Program-made: the position numbers and the translations under genes
In this document: positions 3,282 through 64,000 of the stretch, one piece after another
How positions within the stretch are numbered: position 1 is the first letter of the stretch
Layout of the letters: each line of letters opens with the position of its first letter
Assembly: GCA_036322835.1 (NCBI GenBank)
Contig: AP027304.1
Span: forward strand, 3,348,001-3,412,000
Reading direction: 5' to 3'
From: Tenuifilaceae bacterium CYCD
GTDB lineage: Bacteria; Bacteroidota; Bacteroidia; Bacteroidales; Tenuifilaceae
Length of the DNA stretch: 64,000 nucleotides
The notes under the pieces: generated by a model
Databases searched by the model: none
Told to the model about the DNA's origin: nothing
Seen by the model: the letters and a program-made list of their open reading frames with translations, nothing else

Positions 3282-3758
3282 ATGGTTAATTATAAATACT
3301 TTACTATTGCAGTGATTATAATGCTATATGGCTTTTCGGCAAAATGCCAAACCGACACATCTAAAAAAATGGATAACAATAATTTAAAAAGCAAACTTAC
3401 AGAACTTCAGTTCTACGTTACCCAACAGAAAGGAACAGAGCGACCATTCACTGGTGAGTTCTGGGATAATTTTGAGAAAGGGAAATACCTATGCATTTGC
3501 TGTGGTGCAGAACTATTTGAGTCTGACACCAAATTCAACTCCAGCTGTGGCTGGCCTAGTTTCTTCGACTCAAAGTTTATTGATAATATAAAATTTGCCA
3601 AGGATACAAGCCACGGGATGATAAGAACAGAGGTACTATGTAAAAAATGCGGAGCACATCTTGGCCATGTTTTCGAAGATGGCCCTGAACCCACAGGTTT
3701 AAGATACTGTATTAATTCTGCTTCATTAAAATTTGTTCCATCAAACACTAAACACTAA
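3282..3758 (+). CDS. msrB: Peptide-methionine (R)-S-oxide reductase, exported MsrB
   Basis: Reduces methionine-R-sulfoxide in proteins. In the 158-residue product the MsrB domain spans about residues 35-154. The four zinc cysteines are C71/C74 (CICC) and C120/C123 (CKKC), and the catalytic cysteine is C143 in RYCINSASL. The SCGWPSF motif is at 88-94. A hydrophobic signal (about 5-22, ending AKC) suggests export to the periplasm or lipoprotein anchoring, so it would repair oxidised envelope proteins; this is inferred from the leader only. No MsrA is encoded next to it. The following LON-domain gene starts 22 bp downstream on the same strand and may share the transcript. Confidence 0.95.
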
Positions 3759-3780
3759 AAAAATTACATTGAAAGAAATT

Positions 3781-4377
3781 ATGAGTTTTTCAACAAAGTC
3801 GATGGCAATGTTTCCTCTAGGAGTTTTCCTATTACCTGGAGAAGAGATGCCATTACGCATATTTGAACCAAGGTATAAACAGCTAATTAATGAATGTGAG
3901 AACAATGGAAATACATTCGGAATACCATTTACCACAGGCAACGAAATAAAAACATACGGCACCGAGGTGGAACTCCTTAATGTTGTTGCAAAAAATAGCA
4001 AAGGCGAAATGGTTATTTTAATAAAAGGTATAAGAAATTTCCATTTACTCGATTTTACAGAAACTTTACCCGGTAAACTTTATGGTGGAGGAGTAATTGA
4101 GTATGTGGATGACATCTATACAACGACTAATCCTGAACTATCAGTCCTAGTAAAAAAACTAAACCTCGATCCAGTTTTAGGCTCACTCCTAACAAACGAT
4201 TCAATAAATTTAACGTCAGTGGCCAAAGCGATGATGCTTAACTCAAACGAAAAGTTCTCGTTTTACTCCCTGCGCGATAATTACAAAATGGAAAAGTATC
4301 TTATTAAACGATTGAGGTTTATTGAGCAAATGCAGGTACAGGAAAAACTTCTGGAAAACAATTTTAGCCTAAACTAA
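3781..4377 (+). CDS. LON N-terminal substrate-binding domain protein
   Basis: A protein of about 198 residues made only of the Lon N-terminal (PUA-like, substrate-binding) domain: it begins MAMFPLGVFLLPGEEMPLRIFEPRYKQL, the classic opening of the family, and has no ATPase or protease domain. Such stand-alone proteins are widespread and of uncertain function. I chose the ATG at 3781 because a purine-rich GAAAG lies just upstream and because the upstream in-frame ATG at 3733 would overlap the end of msrB with an unconserved 16-residue extension. It overlaps the convergent serine-hydrolase gene by 4 bp. Confidence 0.85.
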   Translation: MSFSTKSMAMFPLGVFLLPGEEMPLRIFEPRYKQLINECENNGNTFGIPFTTGNEIKTYGTEVELLNVVAKNSKGEMVILIKGIRNFHLLDFTETLPGKLYGGGVIEYVDDIYTTTNPELSVLVKKLNLDPVLGSLLTNDSINLTSVAKAMMLNSNEKFSFYSLRDNYKMEKYLIKRLRFIEQMQVQEKLLENNFSLN

Positions 4378-5684
4378 TTTTTGCTGGCTAATCCATAGTA
4401 GAACAAATCCTTCTTAGGCAATTTATCAACTTTGGGTAAGTTTTTATCCATGAATCTATCTATAATATAGGGAAAACGAGCACCCTTCCAAGGACTGCAA
4501 TTGGCAATAAAAGCGTAGGTATAACCATTACTAGTAGAAACAGCTAACGCAGTAGTGCCAGGCAACGAACCCGAGCGCCATAACTTTCCGTTTGGCATAA
4601 TCCAGCGCCATCCTAAGGGCTGAAACTTTTTATCCGTAACAGCCATTTGGGCGATAGATCTTTTTGATAGAATATCAGGAAAACTATCGTCACCATCAAT
4701 GGCCAATAGGAATTTGGTTAAATTGATTGACGATATAACCCAACCTCCAGCAGCACCTAAGGTTCTGATATCGTTTCCGCCTCTACACTTAAGCACATTA
4801 TCCTTGGACCCATCGAAGGCAACTATTCTCTCAGCCTCAGGAACCTCGTAGTACCGCGCCTCGTTTTTCAACCTAAGGCTATCCCAATTCTGCGATAAAT
4901 ACGCATCGTGAATGTTTAGAGGCTCAAATATGTTTTCCTTGACGTACTTTTCGTAACCTTCGCCAGAAGCCCTCTCAACTACTAACTGAAGGATACCATA
5001 CCCCAAATTGCTATACGAGCTATGATCGCCTGGTTTAAAATGCAATTTTTTGGAAAGCGCAAAAACAACAATATCATTCAACGATATTGGCAATTCTTTA
5101 TCCAGTTCTTTAGCAATAACATCCTTAATAAACATGTGATCGCCCCATCGCGAGGTCCATCCCCCTGAGTGATTCAAAAGATTATTGACAGTAATATCCT
5201 CTACCCTTTTATCCTTGTAGTTCAGAAATATTGAATCTTTCAGGATTCCACTAGGGCCAAACACTCTATCGGTAAGTTTCAACTTATCATCTTCAACCAA
5301 TTTCATTACAGCCGTGGCAGTAATCAACTTCGATACACTAGCAACTCGCATTAAATTGTAGGGCTGCATCCGCAACTTTTCCTCCTTATTGGCATAACCA
5401 AAGCCATGGGCGTAAATCAACTTTCCGTCCTTAGCAATTGCAACGCTTGCTCCACTTAATCCCCACTTATCAACAAATTGATCAAATGATTTATTGATCA
5501 AATCGTACTGCGAAGAATCCGTAATAGCATTTGAAAGCTTTACAGTATTTAGGTTTGGATATACGTTAGTTTTAATTGATTTTAAGCCAACAATTGCACT
5601 TGATTTATCGCGAAAAGCAACAAAAACAACTACTAGCAAAATGAATATGACGGATACCGATAAAACTTTAACATGCTTGCTCAT
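4374..5684 (-). CDS. Serine hydrolase, beta-lactamase class C family
   Basis: A 436-residue member of the penicillin-binding-protein-like serine hydrolases (Beta-lactamase/PBP4* fold). An N-terminal membrane anchor or uncleaved signal spans about residues 6-24. The active-site SxxK is S116-V-S-K119, a YSN triad (SSYSNLGYG) follows about 100 residues later, and the third motif is SGSLPG near residue 390, where class C enzymes have KTG. The family includes peptidases and esterases as well as beta-lactamases, so the substrate is open. The gene stands alone; its 3' end overlaps the LON-domain gene by 4 bp. Confidence 0.88.
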   Translation of the reverse strand: MSKHVKVLSVSVIFILLVVVFVAFRDKSSAIVGLKSIKTNVYPNLNTVKLSNAITDSSQYDLINKSFDQFVDKWGLSGASVAIAKDGKLIYAHGFGYANKEEKLRMQPYNLMRVASVSKLITATAVMKLVEDDKLKLTDRVFGPSGILKDSIFLNYKDKRVEDITVNNLLNHSGGWTSRWGDHMFIKDVIAKELDKELPISLNDIVVFALSKKLHFKPGDHSSYSNLGYGILQLVVERASGEGYEKYVKENIFEPLNIHDAYLSQNWDSLRLKNEARYYEVPEAERIVAFDGSKDNVLKCRGGNDIRTLGAAGGWVISSINLTKFLLAIDGDDSFPDILSKRSIAQMAVTDKKFQPLGWRWIMPNGKLWRSGSLPGTTALAVSTSNGYTYAFIANCSPWKGARFPYIIDRFMDKNLPKVDKLPKKDLFYYGLASKN

Positions 5685-60656: not shown

Positions 60657-60664
60657 ATTTTCTT

Positions 60665-60682
60665 GCGGTCTGGACGAGACTT
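60665..60682 (-). other. Truncated tRNA-Asp 3' end, probable attachment site
   Basis: Read on the minus strand the bases give AAGT-CTCGT-CCAGACC-G-C: the end of a T-loop, the 3' half of a T-stem, the seven 3' acceptor-stem bases and discriminator G, followed by a terminator. CCAGACC pairs with GGTCTGG, the 5' acceptor end of many tRNA-Asp genes. Upstream (higher coordinates) the sequence is AT-rich and has no anticodon or D arm. An element inserted in the 3' end of tRNA-Asp leaves exactly this remnant; the intact tRNA would then lie beyond the right edge of the window. Confidence 0.7.
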
Positions 60683-60740: not shown

Positions 60741-60904
60741 GGTAGAAATATGGTAGAATGTGTATAATGTAAATATTTTATCATAAACCCAAGTAAAATC
60801 AATGGTTTCAAGATATTTCATTTATTTTTTTCTACCCTTAACAACAATACAAAATACTGATTATCAATATTAACACAAATATAAGTTCATTTAATTTTCT
60901 ACCT
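60741..60904. repeat. TTTTCTACC-type motif cluster left of the array
   Basis: Four copies of a CTACC-containing motif lie between the att remnant and the array: GGTAGAAAT (60741-60749) and GGTAGAAT (60752-60759) on one strand, TTTTTTTCTACCC (60825-60837) and TTTTCTACCT (60895-60904) on the other. The third is followed by AAAATACTGATTATCA (60851-60866), whose core TGATTATCA is a palindrome. The arrangement could be integrase arm sites, operators or promoters. The rest of 60683-60963 is plain AT-rich sequence. Confidence 0.5.
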
Positions 60905-60963: not shown

Positions 60964-62718
60964 TCATTTTTACCCAACAAATCGATTGGGGCTTGATCCG
61001 GGGCTTGGATCTCGGATCTCGAGGGAGCGGCCAAACTATTCAGCCGTTCATCCACACCCAACAAACAGACTGGGGGTTGATCCTGGGCTTGGATCTCGGA
61101 TCTCGAGGGAGCGGCCAAACTATTCAGCCGTTCATTTTTACCCAACAAATCGATTGGGGCTTGATCCGGGGCTTGGATCTCGGATCTCGAGGGAGCGGCC
61201 AAACGATTCAGCCGTTCATCCACACCTAACAAATCGATTGGGCGGGTGATCCGGGGCTTGGATCTGAGATCTCGAGGGAGCGGCCAAACGATTCAGCCGT
61301 TCATCCACACCCAACAAACAGACTGGGGGTTGATCCTGGGCTTGGATCTCGGATCTCGAGGGAGCGGCCAAACTATTCAGCCGTTCATTTTTACCCAACA
61401 AATCGATTGGGGCTTGATCCGGGGCTTGGATCTGAGATCTCGAGGGAGCGGCCAAACGATTCAGCCGTTCATCCACACCTAACAAATCGATTGGGCGGGT
61501 GATCCGGGGCTTGGATCTGAGATCTCGAGGGAGCGGCCAAACGATTCAGCCGTTCATCCACACCTAACAAACCGACTGGGGGTTGATCCTGGGCTTGGAT
61601 CTCGGATCTCGAGGGAGCGGCCAAACTATTCAGCCGTTCATTTTTACCCAACAAATCGATTGGGGCTTGATCCGGGGCTTGGATCTGAGATCTCGAGGGA
61701 GCGGCCAAACGATTCAGCCGTTCATCCACACCTAACAAATCGATTGGGCGGGTGATCCGGGGCTTGGATCTGAGATCTCGAGGGAGCGGCCAAACGATTC
61801 AGCCGTTCATCCACACCCAACAAACAGACTGGGGGTTGATCCGGGGCTTGGATCTCGGATCTCGAGGGAGCGGCCAAACGATTCAGCCGTTCATCCACAC
61901 CCAACAAACAGACTGGGGGTTGATCCTGGGCTTGGATCTGAGATCTCGAGGGAGCGTCCAAACGATTCAGCCGTTCATCCACACCTAACAAACCGACTGG
62001 GGGTTGATCCGGGGCTTGGATCTTGGATCTCGAGGGAGCGGCCAAACGATTCAGCCGTTCATCCACACCTAACAAATCGATTGGGGGTTGATCCGGGGCT
62101 TGGATCTCGGATCTCGAGGGAGCGGCCAAACGATTCAGCCGTTCATCCACACCCAACAAACAGACTGGGGGTTGATCCTGGGCTTGGATCTGAGATCTCG
62201 AGGGAGCGGCCAAACGATTCAGCCGTTCATCCACACCTAACAAACCGACTGGGGGTTGATCCGGGGCTTGGATCTTGGATCTCGAGGGAGCGGCCAAACG
62301 ATTCAGCCGTTCATCCACACCTAACAAATCGATTGGGGGTTGATCCGGGGCTTGGATCTGAGATCTCGAGGGAGCGGCCAAACGATTCAGCCGTTCATCC
62401 ACACCTAACAAATCGATTGGGCGGGTGATCCGGGGCTTGGATCTGAGATCTCGAGGGAGCGGCCAAACGATTCAGCCGTTCATCCACACCCAACAAACAG
62501 ACTGGGGGTTGATCCGGGGCTTGGATCTCGGATCTCGAGGGAGCGGCCAAACGATTCAGCCGTTCATCCACACCCAACAAACAGACTGGGGGTTGATCCG
62601 GGGCTTGGATCTGAGATCTCGAGGGAGCGGCCAAACGATTCAGCCGTTCATCCACACCTAACAAACCGACTGGGGGTTGATCCGGGGCTTGGATCTCGGA
62701 TCTCGAGGGAGCGGCCAA
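60964..62718. repeat. Satellite-like tandem array: 21 units of 84/85 bp
   Basis: GATCTCGAGG recurs 21 times, at 61015, 61099, 61183, 61268 and so on to 62699, with a step of 84 bp, or 85 bp before units 4, 7, 10 and 18. Each unit holds a near-invariant core (CTCGAGGGAGCGGCCAAAC ... TTCAGCCGTTCAT) and five or six positions where two to four alternative words are mixed: TTTTACCC, CCACACCC or CCACACCT; ATCGATT, ACAGACT or ACCGACT; CCGGGG or CCTGGG; CTCGG, CTGAG or CTTGG; CTATTC or CGATTC. A unit counted by hand has 55% GC, far above the flanks. Each unit contains the inverted repeat GATCC-N7-GGATC. No unique spacers, so it is not CRISPR. Long open frames exist on both strands simply because the units lack stop codons. 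Confidence 0.9.
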
Positions 62719-62802
62719 CCGTTTAAATCAAGTGTTTTTGTTTTTGAATTTGAATCTTAAAAAAGAGCGTTTTTATTAAAATTTCATTATTTTTTCTACT
62801 AA

Positions 62803-62836
62803 TTTTCTACCCAAATTTGTAAAATACTGATAATCA
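62803..62836. repeat. Right-flank copy of the TTTTCTACCC / TGATWATCA module
   Basis: TTTTCTACCC, 8 bp, then AAAATACTGATAATCA: the same two words, in the same order and orientation, as at 60825-60866 on the left of the array (there with a 13-bp spacer). A further TTTTTCTACT lies at 62791-62800. The array is therefore bracketed by a directly repeated module. Confidence 0.6.
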
Positions 62837-62870: not shown

Positions 62871-63599
62871 TTATTTTTCAGTAGAAAATGACTTCTTATA
62901 GTCATTCCAACTTTTTAAAATTTGTCGTTTGCTTTTCGACCTTTCCAAATAGCCTAATTCACTTAATACACCGTTTTGCTTATCTGTAATGACCTCTTTT
63001 GACAAATTGTTAATAAAATCATTAATAATAGCCCTGCAATCCCTTACGGTTAAATTAAATTTTAATGAACATTCTTTTACATTTAGCCCTGAAAGATAAC
63101 TTTCTATTAGTCTAGTGTTTTCTTTACCTAATAGCCCTCTTTTTTCAACAATATGAGTTAAGTAAACCCTAGTTAACACAGCATTTCTAACATTATACCT
63201 TTTACTTACGTGAAAATAGCACCTAATCGCTTCCGATAAAGAGTCTTTGTCAATCCTTTCTAGTTGTACTGTTGACAAACGGCTTGAATACTTTAAGTTG
63301 TCTACATTTAAGTTTCTTTTATTCCCATCAACATACTCTATTTGGCCGTTTCTAATAGGTTGATTGCCGAAAGTTGCTAATACTAGTTTAGGGAGGTTTA
63401 AACGCTTGCTTTCGGCAAAAATATAGTTTCGACTATCGGGTTTCAAAATCTCACCTCTATTTAAACCATAAACAACACCCGACTTATTTAGATACAAAAA
63501 AGGGTATGTTTTAGCCCTTTTAAACCCTTTTGCAACTAAATCCCTTATTATGCTGTTTCTGATATCCCTTTTCATACTCTTTTTTGATTTATTTGGCAC
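62871..63599 (-). CDS. Mobile-element protein with degenerate HNH-like domain and C-terminal HTH
   Basis: Up to 242 residues. Residues about 34-108 follow the NUMOD/HNH homing-endonuclease layout (FLYLNKSGVVYGLNRGEILKP; LPKLVLATFGNQP; YVDGNKRNLNVDNLKYSSR), but the usual histidines of the NH-DG box are replaced (EYVDGN), so cleavage activity is doubtful. Residues about 160-200 (RLIESYLSGLNVKECSLKFNLTVRDCRAII) look like a helix-turn-helix. This suggests a DNA-binding regulator derived from an endonuclease. Start is GTG at 63597-63599, or the ATG eight codons inside (MKRDIRNS). It lies 35 bp beyond the right-flank repeat of the array. Confidence 0.72.
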   Translation of the reverse strand: MPNKSKKSMKRDIRNSIIRDLVAKGFKRAKTYPFLYLNKSGVVYGLNRGEILKPDSRNYIFAESKRLNLPKLVLATFGNQPIRNGQIEYVDGNKRNLNVDNLKYSSRLSTVQLERIDKDSLSEAIRCYFHVSKRYNVRNAVLTRVYLTHIVEKRGLLGKENTRLIESYLSGLNVKECSLKFNLTVRDCRAIINDFINNLSKEVITDKQNGVLSELGYLERSKSKRQILKSWNDYKKSFSTEK

Positions 63600-63688: not shown

Positions 63689-64000
63689 TCATACATTGCT
63701 CAACTTAGCATCTTTTATGTACCTCCATACAGTAACTTCACTTATTTTCAACATTTCGCCTATTTCATTATAGGTTTTACCGTTGTGTTTCAGTTCTAAT
63801 GCTCTTAATTTGATGTTTTTATGTTTTTTAATGTCAGCCCATTTCTCCGCTTGTTGCCATTTTTCAATAGTTCTAACTGGACAGCCATCTAACAACTTAG
63901 ATATTTCCGCAAGGTTTAAACCCATTAAATAATATTTTCTGGCTTTTTCCTTATGTTCGATTGTGTACTTATTTCGATGAGTAACAACCTTATTTTTTAC
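63689..64000 (-). CDS. Phage-type helix-turn-helix protein, C-terminal part
   Basis: The frame is open to the window edge, so the N-terminus is missing. The visible 103 codons contain two HTH units: KARKYYLMGLNLAEISKLLDGCPVRTIEKWQQAEKW, the pattern of terminase-small-subunit and related phage HTH proteins, and ALELKHNGKTYNEIGEMLKISEVTVWRYI. The ATG at 63923-63925 is probably internal, because the first HTH begins upstream of it. It precedes the HNH-like gene on the same strand (89-bp gap), so both may form one regulatory operon of the element. Role in packaging or in regulation is open. Confidence 0.68.
   Translation of the reverse strand, partial: VKNKVVTHRNKYTIEHKEKARKYYLMGLNLAEISKLLDGCPVRTIEKWQQAEKWADIKKHKNIKLRALELKHNGKTYNEIGEMLKISEVTVWRYIKDAKLSNV

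Follow-up and report, generated by a model that had tools for sequence, protein, structure and literature searches.

A satellite-type tandem array in a variable slot of phage-satellite-like, tRNA-integrated islands of Bacteroidota

What is a block of G+C-rich head-to-tail repeats doing at the end of a mobile element in a bacterial chromosome, and is it a peculiarity of one genome? The block lies in a stretch of 64,000 nucleotides of Tenuifilaceae bacterium CYCD (contig AP027304.1, positions 3,348,001 to 3,412,000; the whole stretch is referred to as the window), where it has the surroundings listed in Table 1. The locus was extended beyond the window (L009, whose positions become window positions on addition of 58500), and the present element is labelled G000 among the islands with which it was compared. 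The answer that is well supported by what was observed of anatomy, family, slot, composition and turnover is that the array is an accessory, fast-turnover block of satellite type, placed in a variable slot of tRNA-integrated, phage-satellite-like islands of Bacteroidota.

Table 1. Features at the array-bearing end of the island (window positions)
Feature	Position	Strand	Remarks
attL core TTGCGGTCTGGACGAGACT	60663..60681	+	identical 19 bp form the tRNA-Asp 3' end, L009:14774-14792
att-side TTTCTACC / TTCTACC words	60741..60903	.	at 60741, 60752 (-) and 60829, 60896 (+); TGATTATCA at 60858
tandem array	60972..62718	.	21 units of 84/85 bp, 56% GC, 253-bp trimer higher-order structure
HNH-side arm-type-like module TTCTACTAATTTTCTACCC...TGATAATCA	62794..62836	+	resembles the att-side module
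I-HmuI-like HNH-fold protein	62871..63599	-	242 aa, without catalytic histidine; conserved gene directly before the array slot
two-HTH DNA-binding protein	63689..64000	-	110 aa, reaches 64021 beyond the window

The array occurs once in the complete, one-contig genome of 3.92 Mb. TRF reported a single array of period 84 with 20.8 copies, and a period of 253 fitted it better (96% versus 91% match). Splitting the sequence at ACC[CT]AACAAA yielded 20 full units and a 21st that degenerates past 62718; units 4, 7, 10 and 18 measure 85 bp and all others 84 bp. The head-to-tail arrangement of 21 units described in the initial annotation was thus borne out, and so were the triplet blocks, which are evident from the unit differences: units 4-6 differ from units 7-9 at 0, 2 and 0 positions, units 12-14 from 15-17 at 1, 0 and 2, and units 10-12 from 18-20 at 0, 0 and 2. 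Moreover, the mean difference at lag 3 was 3.24 versus 6.44 for permuted unit orders, a value as low being reached in none of 5000 permutations; the other lags were without significance in this test. Direct reading likewise returned the GATCC-N7-GGATC and CTCGAG words in each unit. The selection on the hairpin that had been read from them did not stand: neither as DNA nor as RNA do the units fold better than dinucleotide-shuffled sequences (z between -1.2 and +1.3), and since the copies have recently been homogenised the invariance of the words is not in itself evidence of selection. The location in a mobile element, the non-coding nature and the turnover via exchange of unit blocks were all supported. 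Indeed, there is good support for arrays of this kind gaining units and changing their order through slippage or unequal exchange, the blocks involved frequently comprising three units. The units are contiguous and lack unique spacers, which sets the array apart from a CRISPR.

The element that carries the array is an island of 12.6 kb integrated in tRNA-Asp and flanked by a 19-bp att repeat, the tRNA-Asp copy of TTGCGGTCTGGACGAGACT marking its other end beyond the window. Its main genes all lie on the minus strand and encode an integrase, an excisionase-like HTH_17 protein, a tape-measure protein, small proteins, an initiator-like protein (Rep), a two-HTH protein and an HNH-like protein; at the present end the HNH-like gene is followed by the array and then by attL. 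The integrase is of the tyrosine type (394 aa; PF00589, E 1e-21) and the tape-measure protein matches PF10145 (E 1e-18), and among the island ORFs tested none was recognised as a capsid, portal or large terminase gene. A specific attachment site with its own integrase, together with a phage-derived gene in the absence of a full set of virion genes, is what characterises phage satellites. The island is probably such a satellite and would depend on a helper. It resembles the PICIs (including SaPIs) in its similar size, specific att site, integrase, replication gene, lack of detected capsid genes and terminase-small-subunit-like DNA-binding protein; it differs from them in the RepDE-like replication gene, the single tail genes (tape measure or baseplate hub) and the slot for a tandem array.

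Three of the proteins bear on what the array might be used for. In the two-HTH protein the N-terminal half matches Terminase_5 (PF06056) and the C-terminal half HTH_23, and both matches are found in all 12 homologues (12/12). The protein thus resembles a terminase small subunit, HTH similarity alone being no proof of TerS; a profile search found no homologues of it in Mu-like phage loci. The model of the HNH-like protein matches the I-HmuI fold (1u3e, E 5e-4), and because that fold is kept while the catalytic histidine of the HNH motif is missing in 11 of 11 homologues, the protein is probably a DNA-binding remnant. The Rep protein (333 aa) is by sequence without a Pfam or PDB match; RepDE was the best of the Foldseek candidates (Z 5.5), tied with unrelated entries and obtained with a low-confidence model.

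Relatives of the island were retrieved with HTH and Rep protein profiles. These are mostly located in Flavobacterium, with more distant ones in genomes on the side of the Bacteroidales, the order to which the window itself belongs. The gene order int-xis-Rep-HTH-HNH is syntenic across the homologous islands, and tRNA att repeats were found in most of them; for L031 and L032 the exact repeat was not found and the element limits are approximate. In 7 of the 11 complete islands, the present one included, an array follows the HNH gene. Its units measure 84/85 bp in G000, 50 bp in L030 (29 copies) and L046, 51 bp in L031, 68 bp in L032, 84/63/21 bp in L035 (over 3.6 kb) and 60 bp in L037 (21.6 copies). 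Array lengths range from 0.45 to 3.6 kb, those of four draft relatives with N gaps inside their arrays being uncertain. L027, L034, L038 and L047 are complete and free of arrays, and 79 kb of sequence flanking the islands held no array with a score of at least 150. The initial finding is therefore real and more general than first noted: the present array belongs to a family of dissimilar arrays that share a slot in homologous islands, and is a recurrent part of the island family instead of a one-off. The open-access papers searched gave no description of these islands.

The slot extends from the HTH and HNH gene pair to the attachment end, or to the integrase in rearranged islands. In the islands checked it is bracketed by TTTCTACC arm-type modules, one behind the HNH gene and one beside att, which in most relatives are oppositely oriented; the 11-bp spacing of the att-side words and their position in homologous elements suggest that these serve as arm sites of the integrase. 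Compared with L030 and G000, two islands (L031 and L035) have the integrase/att end turned round with respect to the remainder of the island, possibly through inversion between the oppositely oriented modules, and here too the array lies behind the HNH gene. The slot may hold an array, cargo genes or both. More specifically, L027 and L038 contain the same three cargo genes, one of which matches the candidate defence family PDC-S02 (L027:13290-14953, L038:11568-13231), and L047 contains several genes, one of them DrmA-like (L047:5589-6461); the slot of L034 comprises 425 bp without any gene of at least 60 aa. Candidate defence cargo is thus present in the slot of 3 of the 4 array-free islands, and since these islands hold cargo genes at that very place, the array can be said to occupy a cargo slot. 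The dissimilar arrays of this slot, in some islands supplanted by candidate defence genes, amount to a natural experiment that allows islands with and without an array to be directly compared while their proteins are nearly the same.

That comparison is instructive with respect to function. The HTH proteins of L034, which lacks an array, and L035, which has one of 3.6 kb, are 92% identical, and the Rep proteins of the array-free L027 and L038 are 81-84% identical to that of the array-bearing L030. As near-identical partner proteins occur both with and without arrays, the array is dispensable and turns over rapidly. It follows from the L034/L035 pair that the array is not an obligatory site for the HTH protein and does not behave as a pac site of the SaPI type. 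Similarly, the initial annotation had considered a centromere-like or transfer site, and an indispensable one is unlikely given the close relatives without any array.

The arrays have a composition of their own. Their GC content is 56% in an element of 33% in the present case and 0.48-0.56 versus 0.30-0.33 for the islands as a whole, and as all of them are G+C-rich they are not simple slippage copies of the local AT-rich DNA. The units (50-85 bp) differ between islands and can mostly not be aligned, and their orientation relative to the HNH gene varies. Homology is clear for L030/L046 (z 15) and L032/L035 (z 19), and the weak similarity of the L032/L035 units to those of L046 (z about 6) indicates that these are probably homologous as well; the G000 unit is homologous to none of the others. 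Nevertheless, TGGATC is common to the consensus sequences of all 5 unit groups (0 of 1000 shuffled sets) and TTGGATC to 4 of the 5 (p 0.003). The common motif may reflect descent, being short and shared among groups some of which are probably homologous. Five of the 7 arrays are enriched in GATC, a word that is scarce in the remainder of several islands. Outside the islands the arrays appear to have no counterpart: the G000 array had no match in phage records, in plasmids or, outside the locus, in 59 relatives; its 29-base core had no exact match outside the locus in 84,980 species genomes and IMG/VR; and the L030 and L035 arrays had no match in phage records. In the genomes searched, no G000 or L035 unit was seen away from its own island, the homologous L032 array excepted.

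On the basis of these observations we tentatively prefer the reading of the array as an accessory DNA target (a cluster of binding sites or a decoy) that occupies the cargo slot in a family of phage-satellite-like islands, over a junk minisatellite, an accessory of replication, a stuffer, an RNA or a gene, at a confidence that stays somewhat short of even; the anatomy taken by itself is much surer. The array would be used as DNA, offering many closely packed sites to a DNA-binding protein, which is the less sure step. The binder would most likely be the island's own terminase-small-subunit-like HTH protein or HNH-like protein, or else a protein of the helper or of a competing phage. The array could then be an accessory packaging-bias site or a decoy that aids the island in the competition during helper infection, and it would not act as gene, RNA or main origin. 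In line with this reading are the att limits, the synteny, the single slot in 7 of 11 islands, the G+C-richness, the TGGATC motif, the adjoining proteins of DNA-binding type, the units restricted to their locus and the defence cargo in 3 of the 4 array-free slots. What counts against it is that the HTH proteins of L034 and L035 are so alike although only one of these islands has an array, that array similarity tracks Rep and not HTH or HNH, that the common motif is short and may stem from descent, that folding is ordinary and that no helper phage was identified. For the neighbouring HTH and HNH-like proteins as candidate binders, position is favourable; presence/absence and co-variation are not. 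If the arrays bind a helper protein, they would represent a DNA-only device for anti-phage action or competition for packaging. The wider proposition, that Bacteroidota phage satellites carry G+C-rich, fast-evolving binding-site arrays as cargo in a dedicated slot, in the form of DNA decoys or packaging baits directed at a helper or rival phage and as an alternative to the protein defence genes found there, is speculative and we consider it unlikely.

The main rival is a minisatellite without function, in a slot that tolerates junk, generated by slippage or recombination during replication of the island and owing its GC content to imported seeds or a recombination-linked bias. The gain and loss of arrays without change in the proteins, the spread in length, the dissimilarity of units between islands and the lack of a folding signal would all fit this explanation. 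Yet it does not readily account for arrays in one slot of 7 of the 11 islands and none in the flanks, nor for a G+C-richness unlike the surrounding DNA in every array together with a short motif in common, and we regard it as rather unlikely, if less so than the other alternatives.

A role in replication was also considered, with iterons, a crr-like second region or a copy-control array being bound by the island Rep. Array similarity follows Rep identity (rho 0.53, Mantel p 0.008, about 0.04 corrected for five genes, n=6 islands) and in the same six islands not that of integrase, xis, HTH (Mantel p 0.18) or HNH (0.31), a co-variation that with six islands is suggestive, a hint only. The weak resemblance of the Rep fold to RepDE points in the same direction, as does the precedent of PLE, the phage satellite of Vibrio cholerae, which is integrated, encodes its own replication initiator and contains a 2.7-kb non-coding region with several repeat types that holds the RepA iterons and of which some parts are dispensable for replication (PMC7145576). 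In being an integrated satellite with its own initiator and kilobase-scale, repeat-rich non-coding DNA the present island is PLE-like. However, PLE has a RepA_N initiator with iterons inside the non-coding region, whereas the present array forms one uniform, G+C-rich tandem block at 2.4 kb from rep, with 84-bp units far longer than iterons, and it is absent from close relatives such as L027 and L038 despite the Rep identity given above. In addition, and again unlike PLE, separate origin-like hairpins lie beside rep. The spacer between rep and HTH has a hairpin with a 20-bp stem in the present element, and the hairpin CTCCCGATAGGGAG at that place is common to L030, L027, L038, L046 and L026, with a variant in L047. 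Such hairpins thus occur in array-bearing (L030, L046) and array-free (L027, L038, L047) islands alike, L026 being assigned to neither class. By these sequence features the rep-HTH spacer is likely the replication origin and a better candidate than the array, for which the origin function raised initially is unlikely; the broader replication role is improbable. Conserved inverted repeats (AGTTACACTTNTGTAACT, CTCCCGATAGGGAG) can be seen in the spacers L009:5522-6370, L030:9492-9982 and L027:10812-11442.

Three further explanations carry less weight. A stuffer by which the length of the island is adjusted to headful packaging would agree with the negative correlation between array length and remaining length (r -0.60, n=11), but total lengths run from 10.1 to 12.8 kb and are more variable than the non-array part (SD 839 versus 669 bp), which makes it very unlikely. 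Hardly more can be said for transcription into a repetitive non-coding RNA, a sponge or antisense, and we rate it slightly lower still: Rfam gave no match above or near the gathering score, the folding is no better than that of shuffles, a simple scan found no Bacteroidota-type promoter beside the G000 array and the orientation relative to HNH differs between islands. Finally, 84 bp correspond to 28 codons and open runs reach up to 249 codons, as in a repetitive protein-coding gene; the frame is nevertheless shifted four times by the 85-bp units and the arrays with 50- and 68-bp periods in homologous islands contain stops, so that this is the least probable of all.

The likeness to satellite DNA also deserves consideration. 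Eukaryotic satellites and minisatellites show trimer higher-order repeats and can be G+C-rich and rapidly evolving with a short common motif. The present array shares these features, but it is 1.7 kb long, belongs to a bacterial island and gives no indication of a centromere role. In a survey of prokaryotic satellites most were found to be short and many to be coding, with families rarely transposed (Subirana and Messeguer 2019, PMC6749651). The array is like them in consisting of head-to-tail non-coding repeats of tens of bp, and unlike those surveyed in its trimer higher-order structure and in the repeated presence of dissimilar arrays at one place within a mobile island. The finding links phage satellites to satellite DNA that has a higher-order structure, a pairing rarely seen.

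Some minor observations concern base composition, the helper and distant islands. The array holds 63 GATC in 1.75 kb, and in positions 1-60600 of the window the host under-uses both AGCT (111 versus 208 expected) and GATC (153 versus 236 expected); a restriction-based reading of the GATC richness was dropped because the host itself also under-uses the word. Three of the islands have a single phage tail gene each: the tape measure in G000 (L009:9005-10750), in place of which L030 (5587-6204) and L027 (7114-7728) have a baseplate hub (DUF6046). With the tape measure of L016, an IMG/VR contig of Mu-like appearance, the G000 protein shares 42% identity; this likeness and the tail genes may hint at interference with tails or at a helper of the Mu type. 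A 68-aa island protein (MAYNKRN..., L009:5889-6095) has homologues of 42-52% in Mu-like contigs (L016:4705-4902, L029:13307-13507), and small proteins that look like it come after HNH in L027 and L038. Among the more distant islands, the contig of L059 ends within another array. L058 (25% GC) has a 66-bp tandem array of 8.8 copies with hairpins (AGCACCTTCGGTGCT) at 3526-4105, adjoining the integrase and on the opposite side from the HTH gene. In L062, a distant island of the Flavobacteriaceae, TGTTCCGG repeats are scattered over 891-933, 1916-1956 and 4627-4925, one cluster lying directly behind the HTH gene.
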